NCBI GenBank assembly: GCA_003550275.1 | Contig: QXCW01000002.1 | Span: 124,001 to 188,000 of the forward strand | Length of the DNA stretch: 64,000 nucleotides | Direction: 5' to 3' | From: Flavobacteriaceae bacterium MAR_2010_72 | GTDB taxonomy: Bacteria; Bacteroidota; Bacteroidia; Flavobacteriales; Flavobacteriaceae | In this document: piece after piece, positions 13,100 to 57,201 of the stretch | Layout of the letters: every line of letters starts with the position of its first letter | Numbering within the stretch: the first letter of the stretch is position 1 | Notes under the pieces: generated by a model | What the model was told of the DNA's origin: nothing | Seen by the model: only the letters and a program-made list of their open reading frames with translations | Databases searched by the model: none | Translations under genes and position numbers: made by a program

Positions 13100-13135
13100 A
13101 GGACAACTTACGTAAGTAGGTTGTCCTATTTTTTT
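13100..13135. terminator. Bidirectional terminator between ssb and the amidohydrolase gene
   Basis: AGGACAAC (13100-13107) pairs with GTTGTCCT (13120-13127), with T runs on both sides (13129-13135 on plus; four T on minus). It overlaps the stop codon of the leftward amidohydrolase gene. Confidence 0.8.
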
Positions 13136-14697
13136 AAGACCCTTCCAGCTAGCTTTCCAGTATAAATCCCTTTTTCAATAATTATTTGACCATTGATAAT
13201 AGAGTAAACAAGTCCTTCGGAAAATTCGAAAGGGCCTGTATAAGTTGCCTTGTCCATAAATGCGCTTGGATCAAAAAGTATGACATCAGCATAATAGCCT
13301 TTTTTCAGTAGTCCGCGTTTTGGGATTTTAAAAATTTGTGCTGTTTTATAACTACTGTTATTGATAAAAAAGCTGATGTCAATTAAACGGTCTTTCACCA
13401 CGTAGGTTGAATATTTTTTTGCAAATGACCCATATTTTCTTGGATGTCCAGAGCCACCATCAGATCCTGTTACTACCCAAGGTTGTTTTATGAAATTGTT
13501 AATATCATCAGGATTCATATTAAATGATGCAACTTTGACATATCCTAATTTTAATAATTCAAAAACGGTTTCTTCTGGGCTAATGTTTAAGTGTTTAGAA
13601 ACTTCCAATAGATTTTTACCAACAATAGTTTCGTCCTCATATTCAACTATTAAAAGTTTTTCAGGCCCACCTCTTCTCAATATATTTTGCCTTGTTTCGT
13701 TTAAAATATTTTGTTTAAAAGGGATACTATTATAACGAAGGTAAAGCGAATCCTTTCCACCACTTTCTGCCCATCTAGGAACAACCGCTGCCTGTAAGCT
13801 CGTTGCTGATGCCTCATACGGGTATTGATTTGCAGTGATTTCAATATTATCTTTTTGTGCGTTTTTAATTAGGTTGATTATTGAATCACTTTGATGCCAA
13901 ACATCAACCCCTAAACATTTTATATGCGAAATGTGAACAGGTAAACTTGCTTTTCTTCCTATATCAATTACCTCTTTTATGGCCGATACCAATCCAACTG
14001 AAAATGATCCTTCATCTCTTAAATGGGTGTCGTAGATACCGTTATTTTTGGAAACAACTTTAGCCAAAGCAATAATTTCATCGGTATTGGAATAACTTCC
14101 GGGAGCGTAGAACAATCCTGTTGACATCCCAAATGCTCCGGCATCCATTTCATCTTGAAGTAAGGACTTCATTTTGTCAATGTCCTTATCAGTTGCTTTT
14201 TTATCATTTAGACCTAGCACTTCTTTTCTTATAGTGCCATGGCCAACCAGCATAACAACATTAGTGCCGATGCCCTGTGATTCTAATAATGAAGCGTTTG
14301 ATGAGGTGGGATATAAACTTGAGCCGTCATTTCCAATGACAACCGTGGTCACTCCTTGAAAAAGGAAAGGCTTATTGTGCGATTCATTTTGAGAGACTAA
14401 ATCATTATCTGCATGAGTATGAGGGTCTATAAATCCAGGTGCCAGTATAAGCCCAGAAGCATCAATAGTGATAGCTGCTTTGATATTTAAGCTATCGTTT
14501 TCCCCTAAATATATTATTTTGTCTCCTTTGATAGCAATCACAGTACTCTTTGGAATAGTATCAATTCCATTAAATACAGTTCCGTTTGTTATGAGTATAT
14601 CCGCATGAATTTCTTTTTTACAGGAGGACAATATGAATATCATAAAAACAACTGTACTGATACAGAATTTAGTGCTCGAATGCTTTAATATTTTCAT
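13126..14697 (-). CDS. D-aminoacylase/N-acyl-D-amino-acid deacylase-like amidohydrolase, lipoprotein
   Basis: 523-residue amidohydrolase with a lipoprotein signal (VFMIFILSSC, Cys26), so it is exported and membrane-anchored. The family hydrolyses N-acyl-D-amino acids (or related N-acyl/peptide substrates) to the free amino acid. Metal-site candidates are His93 and His95 (PHTHAD), His225 (THLRDEG), His255/His258 (VHISHIK) and Asp413 (TGSDGGSGHP). The Cys that bridges the metals in studied D-aminoacylases (GNCG) is replaced by Asp124 (GNDGSS). It is the last gene of the leftward operon M14-SusC-SusD-DAPDH-like-amidohydrolase, 3 bp after the DAPDH-like gene. Substrate preference for D-amino acids is inferred from the family only; dihydroorotase/prolidase-like activity is an alternative. 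Confidence 0.82.
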   Translation of the reverse strand: MKILKHSSTKFCISTVVFMIFILSSCKKEIHADILITNGTVFNGIDTIPKSTVIAIKGDKIIYLGENDSLNIKAAITIDASGLILAPGFIDPHTHADNDLVSQNESHNKPFLFQGVTTVVIGNDGSSLYPTSSNASLLESQGIGTNVVMLVGHGTIRKEVLGLNDKKATDKDIDKMKSLLQDEMDAGAFGMSTGLFYAPGSYSNTDEIIALAKVVSKNNGIYDTHLRDEGSFSVGLVSAIKEVIDIGRKASLPVHISHIKCLGVDVWHQSDSIINLIKNAQKDNIEITANQYPYEASATSLQAAVVPRWAESGGKDSLYLRYNSIPFKQNILNETRQNILRRGGPEKLLIVEYEDETIVGKNLLEVSKHLNISPEETVFELLKLGYVKVASFNMNPDDINNFIKQPWVVTGSDGGSGHPRKYGSFAKKYSTYVVKDRLIDISFFINNSSYKTAQIFKIPKRGLLKKGYYADVILFDPSAFMDKATYTGPFEFSEGLVYSIINGQIIIEKGIYTGKLAGRVLKK

Positions 14698-14700
14698 TTT

Positions 14701-15696
14701 TTAATTAATATAACCTGGAACACCAATTGTAGCCATAGTATGCAATCCTGCCGAAGCTTGTAATACAGACTTAATACTATTAATAGCAATTGAACACGTA
14801 GCGATATCTCCATTTATGCCTCCATCAATTTCTGATACAAATGATGGAGAACCTTTTATTGTAATCCTGTCAAAAGAGCGCTCTTCACCAATTGCTGCTC
14901 TAAAATACATCTTTATTTTTAGCTTATCTTGCTCATAGGCATTTGCAATTTGCTCTACACCACAAGGCTCTCCCTTTTTTATATTTAATGAGTCTGTGAT
15001 TAAGTCTCGTTTCGCAATTATGGGATTTAAATCTTCAGTAACTTCATTAACTGTCATTCCAATACTGTTGGCTAAAAAGTATACAGACTCCTTTAAACCA
15101 ACGTGGCGTAATGTACCTTGATTCACTTTCTCTCGAAATGCCTCTAGTTGTATTCCAGCACCTATTTTTTGTTGAAAAGGAACCCGCCTAAAGGTTGCAT
15201 CCTGAACCCGTTCAATGCTAATTTGTTCAACTGTTTTACAAACTGAAGTCATTACAGCTGGTAGATAATCCATTAAAAAGCCAGGATTAACCCCAGTGCC
15301 TAGACATGCAATATTGTGTTTTTTACAAAGAGTGTCTAATTGAAGGCTTAATTCTGGTTGAATTTCCCAAGGATAGGACAATTCTTCGCAGGTTGAAATA
15401 ATAGGAATACCAAATTTTGCAACTTCTTCAATTTGTGGAAGCAACAAGGCTAAACTTGAAACTGTTGTAATAATTGCAATGTCAGGCTTCACTTGTAATG
15501 AAGCTATAGCTTCCTTTACCGAGTTGTGTATGACAATTTGATCAGAAAGTTCTGAAGACACATCGCTCATCGACTTCCCTTTAAGTTCTAGACAAATATC
15601 TACTACAGCAACAGTTGTTATTTCTAACTTTTGAGCAATAAACTTTGCAGTCTGGACGCCAAGCGGTCCAAACCCAATTTGAATAATATGTATCAT
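14701..15696 (-). CDS. 2,4-diaminopentanoate dehydrogenase-like NAD(P) amine/amino-acid dehydrogenase
   Basis: 331-residue cytoplasmic protein of the DapB-related family that includes 2,4-diaminopentanoate dehydrogenase and the native amine dehydrogenases. The N-terminal Rossmann motif is IQIGFGPLGVQTAKFI. The family signature lies near residues 105-155: ISTCEELSYPW and then ACLGTGVNPGFLMDYLP. The reaction class is reversible NAD(P)-linked oxidative deamination of a C-N bond. Its place between SusD and a D-aminoacylase-like gene suggests it oxidises an amino acid or amine released by the operon's hydrolases; this is inference. Gene spacing is 69 bp from susD and 3 bp to the amidohydrolase gene. 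True DapB is unlikely because of the longer C-terminal domain. Confidence 0.78.
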   Translation of the reverse strand: MIHIIQIGFGPLGVQTAKFIAQKLEITTVAVVDICLELKGKSMSDVSSELSDQIVIHNSVKEAIASLQVKPDIAIITTVSSLALLLPQIEEVAKFGIPIISTCEELSYPWEIQPELSLQLDTLCKKHNIACLGTGVNPGFLMDYLPAVMTSVCKTVEQISIERVQDATFRRVPFQQKIGAGIQLEAFREKVNQGTLRHVGLKESVYFLANSIGMTVNEVTEDLNPIIAKRDLITDSLNIKKGEPCGVEQIANAYEQDKLKIKMYFRAAIGEERSFDRITIKGSPSFVSEIDGGINGDIATCSIAINSIKSVLQASAGLHTMATIGVPGYIN

Positions 15697-15765: not shown

Positions 15766-17169
15766 TTATTGGTTTATAGGCGTTTTTGTAAAAATTCCAG
15801 GGATTGGACTTGGAGCACTTGGGTTACCATCAATCTCATCTTGAGAAATTGGCATGCGCTCTGGATATTGACTTCCAGCATTAAGCGGGATTGGCAATGA
15901 GATATCATTATCAGTTGCTCTAATCCGTCTTACATCGTCAAAAGTCACCAGTGTCCCGAAAGTAGAGATGTATTTCTCTTCTATGATTTCTCTTAATAAA
16001 GCTCTATTAGAATCAATACCATCGCTATTTTCGATTCCTCCAGAAGCGAAATCTATAGCTAAATAATCATCATAAAGTTTAGGAAGTCCTGCGTCACCAG
16101 CGAATGCACCAGAGGTTCTTAAATAGGCCCGCAAAGCATTTAATCGCGTAAGCCCTTCATTAAAACCACTAGTTCTAAATCCAGTTTCAGCTAAAATTAG
16201 GAGGTTTTCTTCATAAGTTACCAAAGGCATTGTTGCATTGGCAGCACTTAATCTGTTAGCATTAATACCACTTTGATCTAAAGTTAAATAATCACGTCTT
16301 CTACTTTCATTAGTTTTTAAGTTATTTCTAGACGACATATTAGCTGGGTTTAATAGGTTTTGAGTAAATGATCCGGTTGAAGTTAAATCCCCTGCGCGGC
16401 TTCCAGTTAAAATCAAAAAATACAAACTGCTATTCTCGTTGGTTGTGCCATAGGCACTGTAAGCTTTTGCGTATCGCATTGAATTAGCGGCAGAGCTTAT
16501 TCCAGCTTGAGCACTTGAATACGCTTCAGGGTATTGTCTAGTCATCAAATAATACCTAGCTTTAAGTGTATGTGCTACTTGTATCCAAGATGTAGGATTA
16601 CCATTGAGAAAAATATCGCCACTAAATCGTCTTGTAGCTGGAACGGTACCTAATTGTAAGATGGCCTCATCTAATAAAGATTGAGCAGCTTGAATAACCT
16701 GTACTTGCCCATCAAATGGAACGTCATTCGATCCAACTTGTGAGTAAGGCACATCACCAAACATAGAAGCCATACTTCCAATAGCATGAGCTTCTAATAC
16801 ATTTGCAATACCCTTGACTAATTGATCTTCAGAATTTTCTTGAATGATATCATTTTGAGTCATAATACCGTGGTACATAAACGCCCAAATATCATTACTT
16901 TCTTCAGGTGAAATGATGTAGTCATTAATTCGAGAATATAAGTTGGCAATCCCTCTCATTTGTCCAGTCCAAAATTGAGAAATTCGCATTAAATGTCCAG
17001 ATTGTATTTGTACATCTGCCAGTTCCATTCCCTTGAGTAGTAACTCTGCAGGAACGTCGGTGGCGACATTTGGGTCTTCGTTGATATCCAGATACTGATC
17101 GCAACCTATAAATGTTAACAGCAGTACTGAATAAATAAATGTTCTGATATGTTTTTTCATTGTGATCAT
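15766..17169 (-). CDS. SusD/RagB family nutrient-binding outer-membrane lipoprotein
   Basis: 467 residues. Lipoprotein signal with Cys23 (LLLTFIGC) and the typical SusD opening DQYLDINEDPNVATDVP. It forms the surface lid that binds substrate and hands it to the partner SusC channel. The sequence with MRISQFWTGQMRGIANLYSRIND and SASMFGDVPYSQ is of the SusD_2 kind (PF12771-like) that often goes with non-starch or peptide loci. Its start could also be the ATG three codons in. It lies 3 bp downstream of susC in the same operon. No glycoside hydrolase is nearby, so the ligand is probably not a polysaccharide. Confidence 0.93.
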   Translation of the reverse strand: MITMKKHIRTFIYSVLLLTFIGCDQYLDINEDPNVATDVPAELLLKGMELADVQIQSGHLMRISQFWTGQMRGIANLYSRINDYIISPEESNDIWAFMYHGIMTQNDIIQENSEDQLVKGIANVLEAHAIGSMASMFGDVPYSQVGSNDVPFDGQVQVIQAAQSLLDEAILQLGTVPATRRFSGDIFLNGNPTSWIQVAHTLKARYYLMTRQYPEAYSSAQAGISSAANSMRYAKAYSAYGTTNENSSLYFLILTGSRAGDLTSTGSFTQNLLNPANMSSRNNLKTNESRRRDYLTLDQSGINANRLSAANATMPLVTYEENLLILAETGFRTSGFNEGLTRLNALRAYLRTSGAFAGDAGLPKLYDDYLAIDFASGGIENSDGIDSNRALLREIIEEKYISTFGTLVTFDDVRRIRATDNDISLPIPLNAGSQYPERMPISQDEIDGNPSAPSPIPGIFTKTPINQ

Positions 17170-17172
17170 TTT

Positions 17173-20100
17173 TTAATAGTTTAAGTTAATTCCAAACACT
17201 ACAGATTTAGAACTTGGGTTGGTAAAATAGTCTAAACCTCTACCTACGCCATCTCCAAATTGGTTAACATCTGGATCAATTCCAGGGATATCAGTCCAGA
17301 TTACTAGATTTCTACCAGTAACAGAAAGTTGAATTGACTCAAAGCCAATTTTAGTTAGCCAATCGCCGTTTAGGCTATATGCTAGACTTAGTTCTCTTAA
17401 ACGCGTCCAGCTGGCATCAGAAACTGCAAATTCATTAATTACCGAACCGCCAAATCCACCTCCTAGACTTGTATACCAACTTTCATCTAAAAGTACTGGG
17501 CCTCCACCAAAATCTTGAATATTACCTCTTACTAACACTCCAGCTGGAATTGTATTGCCAGCATAATTGACAAGGTTTTGAGTAGGTGTTACTTCATTGC
17601 CGGTAACCGCATGTGTTCCGAAACCTTGCAGTACAAATCGCGTACGTTCTGCCATCTCATTACCTTGGCTAGTTTCAAATAAAGCATTTAATGAAAAGCC
17701 TTTATAATTGACTCTTAAGCCAGCTGCCCCACGCCAATCTGGATTAGGATCACCAAGAACTTTATCCCCAGAAGTATCTAATTGTGGGAATCCGTTAGCA
17801 TCTAAATCCAATGATCCGTCAGGATTGTGCAATGCAGCACTTCCTAGTAAAACCCCTAAAGGTTGTCCAACCACGGCGCTTGATTTTACTGAAGAACCTG
17901 GAGTAAAATCAACCGACGTAACTCCACCCAAAAATGTGACCTCACTTTTGTTAGTTGAGATATTACCATAAACACTCATGGATAAATCTTCCTTTTTAAG
18001 AAAAGCGTAGTCAAATTCAAACTCAAGTCCTTTATTTTCTAAAGTAGCAATATTCCCCAATAGGGTGTCAAATCCAGAGGAAGGGTTAAGGTCAACAGGT
18101 AAAAGCATGTCTCTAGTTTCATTAAAATAATAAGTTCCAGAAACCTTTACTCTATTTCTAAATAGCCTGAAATCTAATCCTACCTCATACTCTTTTTTCT
18201 TTTCAAATTCTAGATAAGGATTTCCTTGGTCATCATTTAATCGATAACCTCCTCCGAAGGCGGTTAGAGAAACTCCATCAGAATAGCTTGAATAGGTTGC
18301 AGTTTCATATCCTGTTTCCCAACCATGTGGGTCAGGTGCTAGTCCTACTTCACCATAGGCAAGACGTAATTTTGCAAATGATAATGCACTTTCACTATCT
18401 AGTTCTAGTAAATTACTCCAGTTAAAACCAAGTTCTGCACTAGGGTACGTAATTGATTTTGCACTTGAAGAAGCGTCTTCATAAGTTAAGCCAAGATTTA
18501 AATTGAGCAAATCTTTATATTCAAAATTAGACTGACCGTAGAACCTTACATTTCTAATACGTCGATTCCGCTCTAATTCATTAACATTTCCTGCAATAGA
18601 AGGGTTTTTAAGTCTACTATTGTATAGGAAGTCTAAAGCTTCAACATAAATTTGTTTGCGTTTCCTATCATTTATAGCACTTCCTAAAGTGAATTTAGCC
18701 GAAATATCTTCTGTTAACTGAAAATTTAGAAGAGAGATGAAATCTGCAGAAATTTCAGAGTTATTATAGATCTCATTTTCGTAACGCCCTGCATTTGCAC
18801 CATCAGCTGAGAACATCGGGAAAAAGTAGGTCCTGTCATCATTAAAATTATCTAATCCAGCCCTAACTACAAAGTTTAGCCATGGTGTTGCTTTGATATT
18901 AAAATCTAAAGACCCAATGAAACGATCAACTTTAGTATCGCTTGTTTGTTCATACAAGGTCCATAAAGGGTTATTGTAGGTTGGATTTGCTGTATTTCCT
19001 AAATAACGTCTATAGCTACGATGTCTTAAAGGCGTTGGGTTTCCATTATTGTCATAATAAGTTCCAATATAATCGCTAATATCAAAATCGGGTGGATTTC
19101 TTAAGAGACCAAGATATATACCTGCTGTATTGGACCCTTGTTGAATTCGGTTTGATTTACTATTAGTATATGTTATTTTAGCTGAAGAATTTAACCAATC
19201 ATTAAATTTATAGGTATTTCCAAAAGTAAGTGTGTTTTTTATGTAATCACTATTTCTCATAATACCTTTTTGATTTAAATGAGAGGTACTAAAATAGAAT
19301 GTGGCTTTTTCCGTGCCTCCAGATAAATTTAACTTAAGGTCTTCGGCAATACCATCTGTAAATATTTGATCAAAATTACTTTGTGTAAAAACCTCTGTAG
19401 AATTTTTCCCTCCACTTGAAATAGGATAGTAAATTGTACCATCAGCTGCTTCAAAATATTGGCCAGTGGTAACTACTACATCATCAGCACCTGACCTGTT
19501 AGCTATTCGATCTCCCCATGAGTTTGCACTGGTAGGGCTATAATTACCACCCGAGCCTTGGCCATATCCAGTTTGTAAAGGGTGCTTTCTATTAATTTGA
19601 TCAATGGAAATGGAAGAATTTAAAGAAATTCTTAATTTGCCTTCTTTTCCCCTTTTGGTAGTTATTACAATTACACCTCCCAAAGCTCTTGAACCATACA
19701 ATGCTCCTGCAGAAGCTCCTTTGTAAATTTGAATGGTTTCAATGTCATCTGGGTTAATGTCATTTAATCTAGACTGTTGAGATATACCACCATCTTGATC
19801 ACTCCCAAACCCTTCCAGATTGCTATTGTTTAAAGGTATACCATCAACAACAATTAAAGGTGAACTTCCATTAATGGAGCTTACTCCTCTAATTTGAATG
19901 GTAGAACCTGCACCTGGATCGGCGCTTGTTCCAGTAATAGTTAAACCGGAAGCTTTCCCAGCCAAACTATTAATAAGTGTTGGTTCTTTAGATTTAGAGA
20001 CATCTTTAGCACTTATTACAGAATAGGTAGAAGCTACAGCATCCCTATTTTCTTTAAACCCTAATACCGAGATAACCACCTCGTTTAAACTTTCTGCATC

Positions 20101-20388
20101 ATCAGCTAGGGTAGCATTAATGACCGATTGTGTTCCAACTGTAATTTCAACAGTTTTAAAGCCAACATAGCTTATCACAAGAACATCACTATTTGCCTGA
20201 ATGTTAAGGCTATAGTTTCCATCGAAATCAGTAGAGGTTCCGTTGGATGTTCCTTTTACAACTACAGATGCGCCAGCAAGTGGAACTCCGTTATTGTCCG
20301 TAACTGTACCTGTAATAGTGCGCTGCGCATAAGTAAATGCACAGAACAAGGTCATTACAAATACTGAAAAAAGTAATTTTTTGTTCAT
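17173..20388 (-). CDS. SusC/RagA family TonB-linked outer-membrane protein
   Basis: 1071-residue TonB-dependent channel. Signal peptide (MNKKLLFSVFVMTLFCAFTYAQ), an N-terminal carboxypeptidase-like barrel (ITGTVTDNNGVPLAGASVVVKGTSNGTSTDFDG, about 24-100), the plug with the SusC hallmark IQIRGVSSINGSSPLIVVDGIPL (about 165-190) and a 22-strand barrel ending in an aromatic C-terminus (VVFGINLNY). It imports the ligand captured by the SusD encoded 3 bp downstream. The gene is second in the operon, 18 bp after the M14 carboxypeptidase gene. It has no secretin-like signalling domain, so control is not through an ECF sigma but probably through the upstream MocR-type operators. Confidence 0.96.
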   Translation of the reverse strand: MNKKLLFSVFVMTLFCAFTYAQRTITGTVTDNNGVPLAGASVVVKGTSNGTSTDFDGNYSLNIQANSDVLVISYVGFKTVEITVGTQSVINATLADDAESLNEVVISVLGFKENRDAVASTYSVISAKDVSKSKEPTLINSLAGKASGLTITGTSADPGAGSTIQIRGVSSINGSSPLIVVDGIPLNNSNLEGFGSDQDGGISQQSRLNDINPDDIETIQIYKGASAGALYGSRALGGVIVITTKRGKEGKLRISLNSSISIDQINRKHPLQTGYGQGSGGNYSPTSANSWGDRIANRSGADDVVVTTGQYFEAADGTIYYPISSGGKNSTEVFTQSNFDQIFTDGIAEDLKLNLSGGTEKATFYFSTSHLNQKGIMRNSDYIKNTLTFGNTYKFNDWLNSSAKITYTNSKSNRIQQGSNTAGIYLGLLRNPPDFDISDYIGTYYDNNGNPTPLRHRSYRRYLGNTANPTYNNPLWTLYEQTSDTKVDRFIGSLDFNIKATPWLNFVVRAGLDNFNDDRTYFFPMFSADGANAGRYENEIYNNSEISADFISLLNFQLTEDISAKFTLGSAINDRKRKQIYVEALDFLYNSRLKNPSIAGNVNELERNRRIRNVRFYGQSNFEYKDLLNLNLGLTYEDASSSAKSITYPSAELGFNWSNLLELDSESALSFAKLRLAYGEVGLAPDPHGWETGYETATYSSYSDGVSLTAFGGGYRLNDDQGNPYLEFEKKKEYEVGLDFRLFRNRVKVSGTYYFNETRDMLLPVDLNPSSGFDTLLGNIATLENKGLEFEFDYAFLKKEDLSMSVYGNISTNKSEVTFLGGVTSVDFTPGSSVKSSAVVGQPLGVLLGSAALHNPDGSLDLDANGFPQLDTSGDKVLGDPNPDWRGAAGLRVNYKGFSLNALFETSQGNEMAERTRFVLQGFGTHAVTGNEVTPTQNLVNYAGNTIPAGVLVRGNIQDFGGGPVLLDESWYTSLGGGFGGSVINEFAVSDASWTRLRELSLAYSLNGDWLTKIGFESIQLSVTGRNLVIWTDIPGIDPDVNQFGDGVGRGLDYFTNPSSKSVVFGINLNY

Positions 20389-20406: not shown

Positions 20407-21636
20407 TTATTTGGTTAGTATTATTTTCATCATTTCTTCGGCAGATACTTTACCGAAAATTTGTATATCTTCTTTTGGAGTATGGTCTCCGATTTCATAG
20501 GTTATCCCTACGGCATTGTGACCATTTAGCATCCACCCTTTTGAGGTTGGTTTATCACTATTAGCTGAAGCTTCGTTGACCTTATAATTGGGGATGTTAG
20601 ACTCTAATGCTGTAAACCAGTTTTCTATGAAATTTGGCATAGTAGTATTCGCCCGATCCTCATTTGTGTAAAATATATCATACCATGTTGAATGGAAATC
20701 TAGCCCAAGTATAAGTTTGGATTTATTTCTTTTTAATGTACGCTCTATATAACTTACTGCTTGTTGGATTTCAGGTTGATTATAAACAGACCAATCTCTA
20801 TTGGTGTCAACACCTCCAGAATTATGTCGCCAATGACCTAAGTCTACCCCATCAGGGTTCATAATTGGAAAGGCGATAATATGATATTTAGCCAAAAATT
20901 GATCTGACACTTCTGAACCATTTAGTATGGTTTCCAAAAAACTTTGAAAGGCATAATATCCTGTTACTTCAGGGGGATGTTGCCGAGTTAATAGAACAAT
21001 AAGGTCTTTTTCTTTAGAGAGGCCTTTGTAAATACTAAGCACAGGTAAATCTCTGTTTAAAGGCGTTTTGCCAGCGCTACCAATCGTTACAACATCTTTA
21101 TTTGCTATAGCAAGTGTTGAATACCATTTTTTCACATCTGAAGCCGATTGAATTTCTTGAGCAGCAATAGTTTGTGGTGAATTGGTTAAAAGTAGTTTAA
21201 TAGTTACAATACTATCATTTTTAAATATGTTACTCGAATCCAAAACAGTCCAATTGTTATTAGCCTCTATTTTTGGAATATATCTATGTTTAAAACCTTT
21301 AGGGTATTTAAATGTAAAATAGAAGGGTTTAGGTTGCTTTGCCCAAGATTTAAATGCATAATATGGGCTATTGTTAATTGGTGTATTTTCTGGAGTAATC
21401 AATACGAGAGCAGTACTGTCATTGATTTTTTCAAACCCATTAAGGCGAGCACCATGAAATTCATTCGATGCAAAAACGCCCACATCAACAAGCTCATAGG
21501 TCTTTTTTTCTTGGTAGTTTATTGGCTTTGAGGTAGTGTCTACAGGTGTTTTAAAAACAACTGATTTTGGAGCAGAACAGTTTACTACCGCTATAAAGCT
21601 AAATAAACAACATAGTTTCGGCCCCAATCCTTGCAT
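20407..21636 (-). CDS. M14 family zinc carboxypeptidase, lipoprotein
   Basis: 409 residues with a lipoprotein signal (FIAVVNC, Cys20). Zinc site HPPE (His220, Glu223) and the distal ligand His315 in GLDFHSTW. The segment MNPDGVDLGHWRHNSGGVDTNRDW (259-282) is typical of M14 carboxypeptidases of this group, and Glu381 in TYEIGDHTP is the catalytic base. It would remove C-terminal residues from peptides, or cut amide-linked side chains, outside the cytoplasm. It is the first gene of the operon feeding SusC, SusD, the DAPDH-like enzyme and the amidohydrolase, and has a pair of CATACCAAT repeats in its promoter. The order protease-SusC-SusD points to a peptide or N-acyl amino-acid substrate. Confidence 0.9.
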   Translation of the reverse strand: MQGLGPKLCCLFSFIAVVNCSAPKSVVFKTPVDTTSKPINYQEKKTYELVDVGVFASNEFHGARLNGFEKINDSTALVLITPENTPINNSPYYAFKSWAKQPKPFYFTFKYPKGFKHRYIPKIEANNNWTVLDSSNIFKNDSIVTIKLLLTNSPQTIAAQEIQSASDVKKWYSTLAIANKDVVTIGSAGKTPLNRDLPVLSIYKGLSKEKDLIVLLTRQHPPEVTGYYAFQSFLETILNGSEVSDQFLAKYHIIAFPIMNPDGVDLGHWRHNSGGVDTNRDWSVYNQPEIQQAVSYIERTLKRNKSKLILGLDFHSTWYDIFYTNEDRANTTMPNFIENWFTALESNIPNYKVNEASANSDKPTSKGWMLNGHNAVGITYEIGDHTPKEDIQIFGKVSAEEMMKIILTK

Positions 21637-21657
21637 TATCTACGACTTTTAGTAGCT

Positions 21658-21721
21658 TAAATGTAATTGAATATCACCTTAAATTGAGCATACCAATCTT
21701 GTAAAAAGATAGCATACCAAT
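21658..21721 (-). promoter_or_regulatory. Activator-type promoter with two CATACCAAT repeats (M14-susCD operon)
   Basis: Read leftward: ATTGGTATG at 21721-21713 and again at 21697-21689 (start-to-start 24 bp), then exactly 23 bp, then TACATTTA (21665-21658), a near match to the -7 box TAnnTTTG. No TTTG is present at the -33 position (bases read CTCA). Same layout as at 24323-24385. Probable binding site of the MocR regulator encoded at 24388-25866. Confidence 0.65.
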
Positions 21722-21739
21722 TTAAAGAAGTAATCATTT

Positions 21740-22798
21740 TTATTTAAGAATACCTAAATGTAATATACGACCTCCAGACATATTAGCTGGATTTGTACTC
21801 TTACCAATAACAATACCATCTTCTGGGGCTAAATACGTATCAATAATTTCACCAAAGGCATTTTTTAAAATCCCAATCACACCTCCTTTTTTAATATGCT
21901 GGTTTAGGTTTACTGGAACCTCAAGAAAACCACCTTTATTGGTATATATCCAATAGGATTTTTTGCAATAAACAGGTTGCATTTGTTCTGAAGATATTAC
22001 TTCATTATACATTTTTAACCAGTTGAGTGTATTGAAAATCCCCTTGACACCACGTGAGATTAAATCTGATTGATAGACTTGAGGATTTCCATATTCAATA
22101 GTAATACTTGGTATGCCAAGAGCTGAAGCTTCCGCTCGCAAGGTTTCAGTAGCAGATGAGCTTGTTCCAAATGATGGCTTTCCTTTACTGTGCAATATAA
22201 TATCTGGTTTCTGTAATTCAGCTAATTTTAAAAGGGTGTCATTGGAGGCGTCTGCTCTTGCATAAAATGAGTTTATTCTACCAAAGCTGGCTGTATGTAG
22301 ATCTAAATGGACATCAAACACAGGCAAAATACGCTCCTTTATTTTGTGAGCATACTGTTCACTCTCACTACCATTCGATTTGCCAGGAAAACTTCTGTTT
22401 ATATCTTCATCGTCTATAAATTTACGCTGGTTGAGTTCTACAGATAGGGTATTGATTCCGGGAATTGCAATAACCCGTCCTTTTAAACGACTAGGGTCAA
22501 GAGATGCTGCCAATTCATGAATAATTGGTATGCCATTCAATTCATTGCCATGAATAGCTGCTGTAATACCAAGAGTAGGACCAACTTCTTTACCTTGAAC
22601 AACAATCACGGGCACTAAAATAGGTTGCCCAAATGTATTGGTTCCCATATTGAGCCAATAATGACTAACACCAAAAGGTGTTGATGATAATTCGTTTAAG
22701 TTGTTTAATTCTGAAACTATTTTTTGCTGGCCCAAAACATTAGATTGAAACACAACCATAACAATTAAACTGAATAAAGATGCGGAAAAAGGTTTCAT
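21740..22798 (-). CDS. Succinylglutamate desuccinylase/aspartoacylase family protein (M14-like), exported
   Basis: 352 residues with a signal peptide (MKPFSASLFSLIVMVVFQSNVLGQ). The zinc motif is HGNE (His83, Glu86) with the third ligand His168 in FDVHLDLHTA, followed by ITIEYG near residue 245 for the catalytic Glu. The family hydrolyses N-acyl amino acids such as N-acetylaspartate or N-succinylglutamate. This member is secreted, unlike cytoplasmic AspA/AstE. The C-terminal part (VNLNQHIKKGGVIGILKNAFGEIIDTYLAPEDGIVIG) is the biotin-lipoyl-like extension common in this group. It lies 9 bp downstream of the SLC13 carrier gene and forms a two-gene operon with it, suggesting that the released acid is taken up by that carrier. 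Confidence 0.87.
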   Translation of the reverse strand: MKPFSASLFSLIVMVVFQSNVLGQQKIVSELNNLNELSSTPFGVSHYWLNMGTNTFGQPILVPVIVVQGKEVGPTLGITAAIHGNELNGIPIIHELAASLDPSRLKGRVIAIPGINTLSVELNQRKFIDDEDINRSFPGKSNGSESEQYAHKIKERILPVFDVHLDLHTASFGRINSFYARADASNDTLLKLAELQKPDIILHSKGKPSFGTSSSATETLRAEASALGIPSITIEYGNPQVYQSDLISRGVKGIFNTLNWLKMYNEVISSEQMQPVYCKKSYWIYTNKGGFLEVPVNLNQHIKKGGVIGILKNAFGEIIDTYLAPEDGIVIGKSTNPANMSGGRILHLGILK

Positions 22799-22807
22799 TT
22801 TTTTGAT

Positions 22808-24286
22808 TTAAATTGATAAAACGGGTAATACATAAACATACATAAGTATAGTCAATAAAATGACACAAAGCAGATTCAGACCAAAACCACATTTGGCCAT
22901 TTCTGAAATGGTCACACGGTTACTTCCAAAAATCACTGCATTGGTTCCTGTTCCAGATGGTAGCATAAATGAAAAGGAGCAGGCAAATGTTGCAGGAATC
23001 ATTATGAGTATGGGGTTTATACTTCCCGCAATTGCCATTGCTGCCAAAACAGGCAAAAATATATTGGCTGTTGCCGTGTTGCTGTTAATTTCTGTTATAA
23101 AGATCATCAATGAGATAACAATTATCAATATTAAAATCATGGGGTAATCACTTATAAAACTCATTCTCGAACCTAAAAACTCTGCTAGTCCAGTATGATT
23201 AAATGAGTCTGCAATAGCATATCCGCCTCCAACAATCATGACTACGCCCCAAGGAACCTTTGCCGCCGAATCCCAATCTAAAAGTCGTTTTGGTGCTAGA
23301 GGTTTTGAACTACCTGATGGTATAGAGAATAAAAGCAAAGCTGTAATTATGGCAACTGTTGAATCATGAACATAATCTTTTATTCCTAAAAGAGAAGACC
23401 AACCTGGAATTACAAAACCATCCAAAACTATATCCCGTCTAAAAATCCATCCGAGGGCTGTAAAGAGGAAAATTATAAATACTCTTTTTTCCATAATTGA
23501 TAATTTTCCAATAGCTTTAATTTCTTGATTGATAATTTCTCTACTACCTGCAAAATTGCCACAAATTCTAAAATATTTTATGAGATAAAACCAAACAATT
23601 GGTAAAATGATAATGACAATAGGTGTGCCTAATTTCATCCATTGTAAAAAATCAATTTCAGGATATGAAGGGAATGCTTTTGCAAAAACACCAGCGAATA
23701 CCATATTAGGAGGTGTACCAATTAAACTTCCTGTACCACCTACACTTGCCGCATAGGCAATGGCCAACATAAGTGCCAAACCAAATTTAGGGTTTCGTTT
23801 GTTGCCTTCTTCCTCTTCTTCTTTATCTACAATTGCAAGTGCGATAGGAAGCATTAGGAGCACAACTGCAACATTGGCAATCCACATTGACAGGAATGCA
23901 GTAGCAATCATAAAGCTTAAAATAATTCGTCTTCTACTGGTTCCAAGTTTGCTTATAATGTATAGTGCGACGCGTTTATGCAATCCACTTAATTCAATAG
24001 ATTTAGCCAGAAAGAAACCACCTAATAACATCAGGACATAATTGTGGCCGTAGTTTTCTGTAGTTGTTTCGGCATCCAAAATACCTAAAAGTGGGAAAAG
24101 CGCAATTGGAACAAATGCAGTTGCATAAATCGGGATACATTCTGTAACCCACCAGATGGCCATTAAAAGTGCAACACCTAACGCGCTTAATGCTTCTGGT
24201 TGCATTCCAGAAGGCGGAGGCATACTAATTGAAATGGCAAGTATGAGGATGCCTACCCAGAATCCTATGGTTTTGGATCTATCCAT
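22808..24286 (-). CDS. SLC13 (DASS) family sodium:dicarboxylate-type carrier
   Basis: 492-residue inner-membrane carrier with about 11-12 hydrophobic segments. Family marks: WWVTECIPIYATAFVPIALFPLLGI, the first SNT-like region VGGTGSLIGTPPN (about 184-196) and the second EINSNTATANIFLPVLAAMA (about 400-420). DASS proteins import di- or tricarboxylates, sulfate or N-acetylaspartate with sodium. Divergent from the MocR gene and followed by the exported aspartoacylase-like gene, it probably takes up a dicarboxylic amino-acid product; the exact substrate is open. Its promoter carries the CATACCAAT pair. Confidence 0.92.
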   Translation of the reverse strand: MDRSKTIGFWVGILILAISISMPPPSGMQPEALSALGVALLMAIWWVTECIPIYATAFVPIALFPLLGILDAETTTENYGHNYVLMLLGGFFLAKSIELSGLHKRVALYIISKLGTSRRRIILSFMIATAFLSMWIANVAVVLLMLPIALAIVDKEEEEEGNKRNPKFGLALMLAIAYAASVGGTGSLIGTPPNMVFAGVFAKAFPSYPEIDFLQWMKLGTPIVIIILPIVWFYLIKYFRICGNFAGSREIINQEIKAIGKLSIMEKRVFIIFLFTALGWIFRRDIVLDGFVIPGWSSLLGIKDYVHDSTVAIITALLLFSIPSGSSKPLAPKRLLDWDSAAKVPWGVVMIVGGGYAIADSFNHTGLAEFLGSRMSFISDYPMILILIIVISLMIFITEINSNTATANIFLPVLAAMAIAGSINPILIMIPATFACSFSFMLPSGTGTNAVIFGSNRVTISEMAKCGFGLNLLCVILLTILMYVYVLPVLSI

Positions 24287-24322
24287 GATTAACTATTTTA
24301 GTTCTAAAAAACCTTTAAGTAA

Positions 24323-24385
24323 TAAAACTAACTTATAAATGCCCTATATTGCACATACCAATTTTAAATTTATAACCATACCAAT
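24323..24385 (-). promoter_or_regulatory. Activator-type promoter with two CATACCAAT repeats (SLC13/mocR divergent region)
   Basis: Read leftward: ATTGGTATG at 24385-24377 and 24362-24354 (start-to-start 23 bp), then exactly 23 bp, then TAGTTTTA (24330-24323) as a -7 box for the SLC13 gene; the -33 position reads TGCA. Read rightward, the same repeats sit directly in front of the MocR start codon (24388), so bound regulator could also control its own gene. Confidence 0.68.
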
Positions 24386-24387
24386 TT

Positions 24388-25866
24388 TTGCATTTCAATA
24401 TTAAAAACATATTAATAAGTCATGGGCTTAAGGATAAGGATCAGTATAAGAATATATACATTAACTTATATGAAGCATTAAAGAATGCAATTATTGAAAA
24501 GGCTTTATTAAAGGATAGTAAATTACCGCCATCTAGAATTTTAGCAAAAGATTTAGATATTTCCAGAAGTACGGTTCTAAAGGCTTATGATCTTTTAATG
24601 CTAGAAAAATACATTAAGTCGATACCAGGCTCTGGTCATTTTATTTCTTGGACTAATATTGAAAGGAAAGCAAGTCATTTAAAAATAGAAATGGCTGAAG
24701 GTAAATACCCCAAAATTTCAAAGCTGGGGAAATCATTTAAAAAAAACATTCATATTTTTCAAAATAGTAGTAGTGGTGTTGCGTTTAGACCTGGCCTTCC
24801 TCCTTTGGATATATTTCCCGTTCAACAATGGAAAAATCTTTCAAACGACTATTGGAAAACAGTACAACCTTCACAGTTGTCTTATGGTAACACTTTAGGC
24901 TTAAACGAACTGCGAAAAAACATTGCCAATTATTTAAAGATATATCGTAACATAAATTGTAGCTACGAACAAGTTGTTATTACTACGGGCTCCTTACATT
25001 CACTCTACCTAATTGGGAGTACATTAATTGACACCGATGATGGAGTTGTAATTGAGGACCCTACGTACCCACGTGCTTACAATTTGTTCAAAAGTTTAAA
25101 AGCAAAAGTGCATTCAATCCCAGTCGATAATGATGGAATTATTGTTGATGAAATTAAAGACCATAAGGTAAAATTGGCCTATACTACACCTTCAAATCAA
25201 TATCCTTCTGGAGTGAAAATGAGTGTAGATAGAAGGCTAGCATTGTTAAATTGGGCGTCTAAAAAAGGCGTATTGATTGTTGAGGACGACTATGATCACG
25301 AATTTAGTAACTGGGAAAACCCTTTGCCTTCAATATATAGTTTGGACATACAGCAACGCGTAGTGTATTTAGGAACGTTTAATAAATTATTACATCCTTC
25401 ACTTCGCATAGGTTATATGATTCTGCCAGATTATTTAATTGATACTGTTAAAGCGTTGTATGCGCAATCCAGTCGCTTTGTACCAACTTCTACCCAACAA
25501 ACTTTAAGTTCTTTTATAGAGAAGGATTATTTAAATAAACATTTAAGACGTGTTATTGAAGTTTCTATTGAAAGAAAAAAAGTATTTATGGATTCTTTTA
25601 ATTTAAACTTTGATGGAGAAATTTGTTTAGATTCAAGTCATACGGGCTTACATCTTATTGGGAGTTTTAAAGCTGAAATTGATGATTTCACATTGAGTAA
25701 ACACTTGGTTAAACATGGCATTATAACGCATCCATATAGTAACTATTTTACAAAAGGGAGAAAGAAAAGTGGACTGGTTTTAGGGTATTGTTCAATTAAC
25801 AGTAAACTCATTAAAGAACAGGTCAATAAAATGAGTGAAGCTTATATGAAATTTGAGAATAATTAA
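24388..25866 (+). CDS. MocR-type transcriptional regulator (GntR HTH fused to aminotransferase fold)
   Basis: 492 residues. N-terminal GntR winged helix (about 25-90; KLPPSRILAKDLDISRSTVLKAYDLLMLEKYIKSIPGSGHFI), then a fold-type I aminotransferase domain binding PLP through Lys333 (GTFNK), with DPTYPRAY, TPSNQYPSG and EDDYDHEF as further family marks. Such regulators sense an amino compound through PLP and usually bind direct repeats about two helical turns apart. Only a TTG (24388) is available as start; no in-frame ATG lies before the HTH. Divergent from the SLC13 operon and 37 bp before a second SLC13 gene. The CATACCAAT repeats at two promoters are its likely operators. Confidence 0.9.
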   Translation: MHFNIKNILISHGLKDKDQYKNIYINLYEALKNAIIEKALLKDSKLPPSRILAKDLDISRSTVLKAYDLLMLEKYIKSIPGSGHFISWTNIERKASHLKIEMAEGKYPKISKLGKSFKKNIHIFQNSSSGVAFRPGLPPLDIFPVQQWKNLSNDYWKTVQPSQLSYGNTLGLNELRKNIANYLKIYRNINCSYEQVVITTGSLHSLYLIGSTLIDTDDGVVIEDPTYPRAYNLFKSLKAKVHSIPVDNDGIIVDEIKDHKVKLAYTTPSNQYPSGVKMSVDRRLALLNWASKKGVLIVEDDYDHEFSNWENPLPSIYSLDIQQRVVYLGTFNKLLHPSLRIGYMILPDYLIDTVKALYAQSSRFVPTSTQQTLSSFIEKDYLNKHLRRVIEVSIERKKVFMDSFNLNFDGEICLDSSHTGLHLIGSFKAEIDDFTLSKHLVKHGIITHPYSNYFTKGRKKSGLVLGYCSINSKLIKEQVNKMSEAYMKFENN

Positions 25867-25903: not shown

Positions 25904-27361
25904 ATGACAATTAAACCAACCAAAAGTATCATTGGGCTTATTTTAGGGCCATTACTATTTGTTTTAATTTTATTGTTCTTTCATCCTGAAGGTTTAACCA
26001 AACCTGCTAATGCTGTTTTGGCATCGGCCGTATGGATCGCTGTTTGGTGGATAACCGAGGCAATGCCTATTGCGGTTACCGCACTATTACCTATTATTCT
26101 TTTTCCGTTAAGTGGAGGCCTAGGCTTAGATGAAACAACCGCTTCTTACGGACATAAATATGTGTTTCTATATATTGGCGGTTTTATTATTGCCATAGCC
26201 ATTGAAAAATGGAATCTTCATAAGCGTATTGCATTAACCATCATAAAAATTGTAGGTACTAATGTGATCCATATCATTTTAGGTTTTATGATTGCTACGG
26301 CATTTCTATCGATGTGGATATCGAATACAGCTACTTCTGTGATGATACTGCCCATAGGTATGGCCATTGTTGCGCAATTAAGGGACAACCCAAATACCGT
26401 TGAAAATGAAAATTTAATATTTGGGAAAGCGCTGATGCTGGCCATTGCTTATAGTGCATCAATTGGCGGTATGGCGACTCTAATTGGAACGCCACCAAAT
26501 TTGGTTTTAGCAGGTGTGGTTCAAGAAACCTATGGCGTAGAAATTACATTTGCACAATGGTTTACATTTGGGTTTCCAATTAGCGTTATCCTATTGTATA
26601 TATGTTGGTTGTATCTAACACGTGTAGCTTTTAAATTCAAGCAAAAAGCATTTCCTGGAGGAAGACAGGAAATACAGACGCAATTAAAGTCACTCGGAAA
26701 AATTTCCTTTGAAGAAAAAACGGTACTTGTTGTATTTGTATTTACCGCTGTGGCATGGATTTGTAGATCGTTTTTGATCAAGCAATTTATTCCGGCAATT
26801 GACGACACCATCATTGGAATTTTTGGTGGAATTTTATTGTTTTTGTTGCCAAGGAAAGATAAGAAAAGCCGATTACTAGACTGGGATGATGCGATCAAAT
26901 TGCCATGGGGAATCATACTCTTATTTGGTGGTGGTATGGCATTGGCATTAGGTTTTGAGTCTAGTGGTTTGGCGCAATGGATTGGGCAACAAATGTCATC
27001 TTTAAGCACATTGCCACTTATTTTAATTCTTTTGGTTTTGGTCGCTTCAGTCAATTTCTTGACTGAAATTACTTCTAATTTAGCTACAACAGCAATGTTA
27101 CTTCCTGTATTGGTGTCACTTGCTTCTGCAATAGGGATTCATCCGTATTTGTTATTAGTTGGCGCAACGGTTGCCGCTTCATGTGCATTTATGCTACCTG
27201 TAGCAACGCCGCCAAACGCTGTTGTTTTTGGTTCTGGGTATTTAAAAATTGAAGACATGGTACGAAAGGGTTTTTGGATGAATATCATCTCAATTGTCCT
27301 TCTAACCTTAATCGTTTATTTTATACTTCCGCTAATTTGGGATTTAAGTAGAACATTATAA
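25904..27361 (+). CDS. Second SLC13 (DASS) family carrier
   Basis: 485-residue inner-membrane carrier, paralogous to the one at 22808-24286: same WWITEAMPIAVTALLPIILFPL opening, IGGMATLIGTPPNLVLAG as first substrate/sodium loop and LTEITSNLATTAMLLPVL as second. About 11-12 membrane segments. It follows the MocR gene by 37 bp in the same direction, so it is probably co-transcribed with it. It may import the same class of acid with different affinity or counter-ion, or a product of the second operon. Ends 9 bp before the convergent YceI gene with no strong terminator seen. Confidence 0.92.
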   Translation: MTIKPTKSIIGLILGPLLFVLILLFFHPEGLTKPANAVLASAVWIAVWWITEAMPIAVTALLPIILFPLSGGLGLDETTASYGHKYVFLYIGGFIIAIAIEKWNLHKRIALTIIKIVGTNVIHIILGFMIATAFLSMWISNTATSVMILPIGMAIVAQLRDNPNTVENENLIFGKALMLAIAYSASIGGMATLIGTPPNLVLAGVVQETYGVEITFAQWFTFGFPISVILLYICWLYLTRVAFKFKQKAFPGGRQEIQTQLKSLGKISFEEKTVLVVFVFTAVAWICRSFLIKQFIPAIDDTIIGIFGGILLFLLPRKDKKSRLLDWDDAIKLPWGIILLFGGGMALALGFESSGLAQWIGQQMSSLSTLPLILILLVLVASVNFLTEITSNLATTAMLLPVLVSLASAIGIHPYLLLVGATVAASCAFMLPVATPPNAVVFGSGYLKIEDMVRKGFWMNIISIVLLTLIVYFILPLIWDLSRTL

Positions 27362-56481: not shown

Positions 56482-57201
56482 ATGTTGATTAAAACAAATG
56501 CCATTGTACTTTCAAAATTAAAGTATAGAGACAACGATCTTATTGTTAAATGTTATACGAAACAGAAAGGTGTTGTAAGTTATATTGTAAGAGGGGCATT
56601 TAAGACTCAAAAAGGAAGTGCAAAAGCCGTATATTTCCAACCCTTATCACAACTTCAATTTGATGGCAATTATAAAGAAAATAGATCCCTACAGAGCATT
56701 AGTGAGGTTAAATTAGATTCTCTATACCAAACACTTCATACCAATATCCTTAAAAGTGCTATAGCCATGTTTTTATCAGAGGTGCTTTCTACCGTACTTC
56801 AAGAAGAAGAACAAAATGAAGCGCTGTTTTCATATTTAGAACATACGTTTAATTGGTTAGATCATGAAACGGAATTTTCAAATTTTCATTTGCTGTTTCT
56901 GCTGAATTTAACCAAATATCTTGGGTTTTATCCTGATACTCAAAATATGGACCAATCCTTTTTTAATTTGAGTAATGGGCTTTTCGAGCCTCAAAAGCAA
57001 GATATGTATTCAATTTCAGGCGAAAATTTAACAATTCTAAAACAGCTTTTAGGCACAAATTTTGATGCAATTCACACAGTTAAATTAAATTCAAAGCAAA
57101 GGCAATCGTTTTTAAATATGCTGTTACTTTATTTTGAATTACATTTGGGCGATTTTAGAAAACCAAAATCTCTCCAAATATTTAATCAAGTATTTAATTA
57201 A
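56482..57201 (+). CDS. recO: DNA repair protein RecO
   Basis: 239 residues. N-terminal OB fold (LIKTNAIVLSKLKYRDNDLIVKCYTKQKGVVSYIVRGAFK) and a helical C-terminal part (SFFNLSNGLFEPQKQ, where a zinc finger exists in other phyla but the Cys are absent here). With RecF and RecR it loads RecA on SSB-coated single strands. Normal for Bacteroidota. Downstream of porZ by 16 bp and directly ahead of the TonB receptor gene. Confidence 0.93.
   Translation: MLIKTNAIVLSKLKYRDNDLIVKCYTKQKGVVSYIVRGAFKTQKGSAKAVYFQPLSQLQFDGNYKENRSLQSISEVKLDSLYQTLHTNILKSAIAMFLSEVLSTVLQEEEQNEALFSYLEHTFNWLDHETEFSNFHLLFLLNLTKYLGFYPDTQNMDQSFFNLSNGLFEPQKQDMYSISGENLTILKQLLGTNFDAIHTVKLNSKQRQSFLNMLLLYFELHLGDFRKPKSLQIFNQVFN

Follow-up and report, generated by a model that had tools for sequence, protein, structure and literature searches.

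Two pairs of the direct repeat CATACCAAT, located in the window (the whole stretch of 64,000 nucleotides that was analyzed), are very likely the operators of a MocR-type regulator encoded beside one of them, a regulator that we propose activates the two operons reading leftward from the pairs and limits expression of its own gene, mocR. A search of the window sequence identified exact copies of CATACCAAT on the + strand at positions 21689, 21713, 24354 and 24377, just where the first-pass annotation had placed them, with the members of the 21689/21713 pair 24 bp apart and those of the 24354/24377 pair 23 bp apart. Read leftward, the two pairs take the forms ATTGGTATG-N15-ATTGGTATG and ATTGGTATG-N14-ATTGGTATG, respectively; on the minus strand, the ATTGGTATG copies at 21689..21697 and 24354..24362 are designated the near boxes of their operons and those at 21713..21721 and 24377..24385 the far boxes. 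Such pairs are rare. The window holds 10 copies of CATACCAAT, versus 0.97 expected from 100 shuffles, and the six copies outside the pairs, at 22524 (minus strand), 30823, 49413, 51826, 51995 and 56737, all lie within ORFs of at least 90 aa, so that only the two pairs are intergenic in the window. In the complete genome (3,414,176 bases; 3.41 Mb), the exact pattern ATTGGTATG-N11..18-ATTGGTATG was matched twice, by these two pairs, and a control with the pattern read backwards gave no match genome-wide. When up to three mismatches were allowed, the expectation for the window was 0.17 for N14 and 0.10 for N15, and the window scan returned one further weak match (three mismatches) at 56737, within an ORF. 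Elsewhere in the genome a third, looser pair, at C2:2245574, is inside an ORF and was taken to be a chance match. Based on the rarity in the genome, the shuffles and the scan of related genomes described below, a chance origin of the pairs was rejected.

The regulator gene, mocR (24388..25866, + strand), starts with TTG, a start that is backed by its relatives, in which ATG or TTG is followed by HFNIK-like residues. Its product has the domain make-up of the MocR/GabR subfamily, with a GntR-type winged-helix domain (PF00392, 38.6 bits, cut-off 27) and an aminotransferase-like domain (PF00155, 65.5 bits, cut-off 19.7). The closest solved structure is GabR (4n0b, 202.8 bits), and Lys333 of MocR aligns with Lys312, the PLP lysine of GabR (PMC8739950). 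Located 37 bp 3' of mocR, and perhaps co-transcribed with it, is a gene for an SLC13-type symporter, designated DASS2 (25904..27361, + strand; TIGR00785, 330 bits). The operon preceded by the 24354/24377 pair, on the minus strand, encodes a first SLC13-type anion symporter, DASS1 (22808..24286; TIGR00785, 257.6 bits, cut-off 198.6), and an aspartoacylase/succinylglutamate desuccinylase-like protein, ASPA (21740..22798; PF24827, 114.5 bits). The operon preceded by the 21689/21713 pair, also on the minus strand, begins with an M14 zinc carboxypeptidase-family protein (20407..21636; PF00246, 61.8 bits) and continues with a SusC/RagA TonB-linked outer membrane protein (17173..20388; TIGR04056, 585 bits), a SusD-like lipoprotein (15766..17169; PF12771, 58.6 bits), a 2,4-diaminopentanoate-dehydrogenase-like protein, DAPDH (14701..15696; PF19328, 118 bits), and an amidohydrolase whose nearest solved relatives are D-aminoacylase (13126..14697; PF07969; 1m7j, 203 bits). 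Assignment of 14701..15696 as a true 2,4-diaminopentanoate dehydrogenase was rejected at 227.6 bits for NF040740 versus the NCBI cut-off of 400; the solved structures related to it bear the names dihydrodipicolinate reductase and amine dehydrogenase.

On the minus strand, a -7-like box begins exactly 23 nt past the near repeat in front of each leftward operon: TACATTTA (21658..21665, read from 21665 to 21658) for the M14-susCD operon and TAGTTTTA (24323..24330, read from 24330 to 24323) for the DASS1-ASPA operon, the latter at an offset that is kept in relatives. The usual spacing of Bacteroidota promoters is TTTG-N19-21-TAnnTTTG. In both window sites there is no TTTG at the -33 position and the predicted -7 box reads TAnnTTTA, which bears out what the first-pass annotation had said of them; its description of the spacing as identical holds for the distance from repeat to -7 box (23 nt in both) and fails for that from repeat to repeat (24 versus 23 bp). 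If the boxes are numbered from the placement of the sigma-A -7 box at -12 to -5 in Flavobacterium psychrophilum (PMC9723704), transcription is predicted to start at 21653, 17 nt 5' of the ATG of the M14 gene, and at 24318 for DASS1-ASPA. This numbering would put both near boxes at -36 to -44; for the far boxes it gives -60 to -68 (M14 operon) and -59 to -67 (DASS1 operon). Near and far boxes at such positions, -36 to -44 and -59 to -68, stand where activators touch the polymerase in well-studied bacteria.

The distance to the -7 box is fixed among relatives. Of 23 sites from the first group of MocR relatives (group 1), 19 had TAnnTTT 22-23 nt past the near box (14 at 23 and 5 at 22), compared with a mean of 0.4 and a largest value of 4 in 2000 shuffles, while TTTG occurred in the first 42 nt past the near box in none of the 23 and the sigma-A form TAnnTTTG was likewise seen in none of them. 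With the pattern relaxed to TAnnTT, 44 of 47 sites from three MocR subgroups had it 22-23 bp from the near box (21/23, 7/7 and 16/17), offset 22 having been added after group 1 was viewed and the 17 sites of the third subgroup, in which MocR is 42-46% identical, having been counted afterwards with the rule fixed. Strict TAnnTTT was present in 1/7 group-2 sites and in 8/17 sites of the 42-46% subgroup. In that subgroup TTTG was found within the first 19 nt at 6/17 sites versus 0/30 in the other groups, and in the sites inspected it was not at the -33 distance. Two sites stand outside the 47: a third pair in locus L042, with TAGCTTGC at offset 22 as judged by eye, and the site in L167, with TAnnTT at 23. 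Column identities over 10 sites were 0.93 and 0.94 for the boxes, 0.53 for the spacer and 0.48 for the gap, values that are not evidence for the box, the spacing or the -7 box because the sites were chosen by those very features. Three group-2 sites (L046:6207, L069:7115 and L069:9956) carry an inverted CTACCAAT 3' of the -7 box, which fits the published operator type of two direct boxes and one inverted box.

To follow the pairs among relatives, 80 loci were taken from a scan of named genomes, and the 37 closest (L033-L069) were used; L062, L063, L066 and L068 are without a mocR start, leaving 33 loci, and L070-L112 were excluded for their distance or, for L076, as a fragment. At no more than one mismatch per box and a spacing of 22-25 bp, a pair was present at the mocR start codon in 20 of the 33. 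The 13 that failed the rule comprise seven loci with one perfect box and a decayed partner, one with a single box (L060), three with decayed boxes (L040, L047, L055) and two with no box (L056, L058); in four further relatives (L120, L121, L130, L131) the stretch examined showed no pair. In the window, 2 nt separate the far box from the start codon of mocR; in all 18 group-1 sites next to mocR the far box ends 0-2 nt 5' of that codon, as assigned by homology, so the repeats do touch the start of the regulator gene as first described. Within the set of 19 group-1 MocR proteins, which includes that of the window, identity to the nearest neighbor reaches no more than 57-79%. Pairs also precede M14 or susC genes at seven places away from mocR, 1-10 kb distant. 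Separate pairs were found before M14 genes in L034, L042, L116, L064 and L167, and before susC in L044 (~540 bp away), L046, L050 and L069; the L167 site, which came from a blind pattern scan, precedes a gene 53% identical to the M14 gene of the window and is 10 kb from mocR. The boxes are therefore repeated, set at helix-turn spacing and kept among relatives, the marks of an operator of the MocR/GabR subfamily. Absence of the repeats beside orthologous operons, which the first-pass annotation had named as grounds for abandoning its proposal, was not what the comparison found.

Some loci differ from the window in their arrangement. In the 42-46% subgroup, the majority of loci have pairs on either side of mocR, and a homologue of DASS2 is divergent from mocR in 8/9; this homologue (74-83% identical; L004, L123-L129, with MocR 42-44% identical) is thus placed unlike DASS2 of the window. 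In L034:7011-9910 and L042:7021-9908, the operon facing mocR has an aminotransferase and a gamma-glutamyltranspeptidase gene before DASS1 and ASPA (the families of the first two of these genes were scanned in L034); in L042, a gene of the penicillin-amidase type and one for an M14 protein (L042:11600-16442) follow the third pair.

The link between pair and regulator was also apparent across a sample of 397 genomes of the family, in which a close MocR relative was defined by an E value of 1e-80 or better. Such a relative was present in 19 of the 397 genomes and the 8-mer pair ATACCAAT-N15/16-ATACCAAT in 31; the pair occurred in 13 of the 19 genomes with a MocR relative, the window's own among them, versus 18 of the 378 without (Fisher, 5e-12). 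One site was read in 17 of the 18 genomes with the pair alone, and 15 of these sites are inside ORFs of at least 120 aa, the others being in L133 and, near a contig end, in L168. Among the sites of the 13 MocR-containing genomes, 11 are intergenic and those of L176 and L180 are within the stretch by which the mocR ORF itself is mechanically extended upstream. An open scan for ATACCAAT-N4..34-ATACCAAT matched at least 229 of the 397 genomes and, being too loose, was replaced by the N15/16 scan. It is important to note that the locus set and the family set share some genomes (e.g., L034 and L114), so these lines of evidence are not fully separate. The family-wide association, the 20/33 mocR starts and the M14/susC pairs away from mocR together support the earlier proposal that the pairs are the operators of the adjacent MocR.

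On the rightward side, the near box at 24354..24362 also lies between the mocR start and a putative -7 box of mocR, TATATTGC (24345..24352, + strand), which is 1-2 bp from the pair and would give a predicted start at ~24357. TATATTGC fits TAnnTTGY, the SM5 promoter motif of Flavobacterium psychrophilum (PMC9723704). TAnnTTG was present exactly 2 bp from the pair at 10 of the 18 sites next to mocR, compared with 1 of the 5 that lack mocR; for TAnnTT the counts were 13 of 18 and 3 of 5. The former counts are suggestive of a mocR -7 box; since TAnnTTG also occurs at a site without mocR, we demoted it from a mocR-specific -7 box to a candidate, and it may instead belong to the operator. If the candidate is the mocR promoter, both boxes are in the mocR leader and binding to them would block mocR.

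From these observations we infer binding of MocR at the pairs, activation, autorepression and switching by a ligand. One head-to-tail MocR dimer would occupy each pair, with one winged-helix domain on each box, and bound MocR would recruit RNA polymerase, standing in for the -33 contact that is missing from promoters with a near box at about -36 to -44, a far box at about -59 to -68, a TAnnTTTA -7 box and no TTTG at -33. In this way the M14-susCD-DAPDH-amidohydrolase and DASS1-ASPA operons may both be turned on by bound MocR, which would itself be switched by an amino compound reacting with its PLP. Rightward, the same binding at 24354-24385, with the candidate -7 box of mocR on one side and the start codon on the other, would limit mocR. 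Activation, replacement of the -33 contact and autoregulation are inferred from the geometry of the sites.

That geometry also bears on whether MocR might bind the pairs as a repressor of the leftward operons, in the manner of EnuR at the ectoine genes. EnuR, a relative of MocR/GabR, acts as a repressor, and -35 and -10 are overlapped by its putative sites (PMC8739950); the boxes described here, in contrast, are upstream of -33 (about -36 to -68) and leave the -7 box free in 44/47 sites, and with no -33 TTTG in the 23 group-1 sites the promoter seems too weak to need repression. As such, we consider repression unlikely. Still less probable is that the repeats are sites of some other regulator, or of an alternative sigma factor, with the adjacency of mocR incidental. 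The pair is found also near genes other than mocR, as such an assignment would have it, but it co-occurs with MocR relatives (13/19 versus 18/378) and touches the mocR start in 20/33 loci, and two copies of a box set 23 bp apart, 22-23 bp from a -7 box, are not the form that a sigma element would take. Finally, the presence of both boxes in the mocR leader, should the candidate -7 box of mocR prove correct, could mean that the repeats work in RNA; the pairs are, however, upstream of the predicted M14 and susC -7 boxes and so would not be transcribed with those operons, which leaves this explanation hardly credible.

Under the preferred reading, in which MocR activates from the pairs, the gene content gives a faint indication that the operons serve to take up and degrade amino compounds that are N-acylated or peptide-bound and perhaps of the D form. 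The D-aminoacylase-like amidohydrolase, the M14 and aspartoacylase-like proteins and the dehydrogenase suggest N-acyl or peptide-bound amino compounds. In two loci, genes resembling D-amino-acid transaminase are beside the amidohydrolase gene (L044:7867-8736, 259.4; L069:8929-9807, 258.9) and just miss the cut-off of 277.45; with the operon content, they are a weak pointer to D- or N-acyl compounds. Taking these points further, we tentatively raise the possibility of a rigid class of Bacteroidota activators for N-acyl/D-amino scavenging, in which a MocR dimer at about -40/-63 replaces the -33 contact and blocks its own start, with a geometry that three subgroups have kept and that has persisted where the target operons moved away from mocR.

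Among known regulators, the GabR of Bacillus subtilis resembles MocR in its domains, its PLP lysine, the divergent layout of its locus and a direct-repeat operator. Its direct repeat is ATACCA. The MocR residue aligned with Arg430 of GabR is Asn452, so the MocR ligand is probably not GABA, and GabR identity (equivalog) was rejected at 294.4 bits for the NCBIfam model versus a cut-off of 600. The GabR half-site S2, TGGTAC (PMC9452892), shares TGGTA with ATTGGTATG. In the GabR site, which spans 41 bp, two direct boxes flank an inverted one, whereas the operators described here consist of two direct boxes, 23-24 bp apart. The NCBIfam PdxR model scored 391.5 bits and so passed its cut-off (320). 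Despite this score, PdxR was not adopted as a name because the neighbors do not support it: no PLP-synthesis genes were detected among the nine neighbors scanned, and in the genome the exact pair precedes only M14 and DASS1/mocR, not genes that make or salvage PLP. As an automatic annotation, PdxR would mislead for this regulator. GabR and PdxR both activate a divergent operon and repress themselves (PMC5320631; PMC9452892), behavior that we propose for MocR as well. Among the MocR regulons reconstructed by Suvorova and Rodionov (2016), motifs of two direct boxes are frequent (70 regulogs, 186 regulons), with a TGG core and a spacing set by turns of the helix (PMC5320631); the preference for direct repeats about two turns apart, which the first-pass annotation ascribed to MocR proteins, is thus in the literature. 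In that survey the Bacteroidetes are thinly covered (8 regulogs, 19 regulons; PMC5320631), and the MocR group described here may be among the regulons already reconstructed there or in RegPrecise. Judged by title, no paper on this regulon was identified among the open-licence PMC literature, in which PMC12915131 names MocR. The window thus provides a MocR regulon with defined predicted operators and promoter geometry in a phylum with few described (PMC5320631), and a testable case of activator action on a promoter without a -33 element. Since direct TGG boxes at helix-turn spacing, and divergent activation together with self-repression, are known, we place the regulator in the MocR subfamily and file the arrangement as a further example of known MocR-type gene control.
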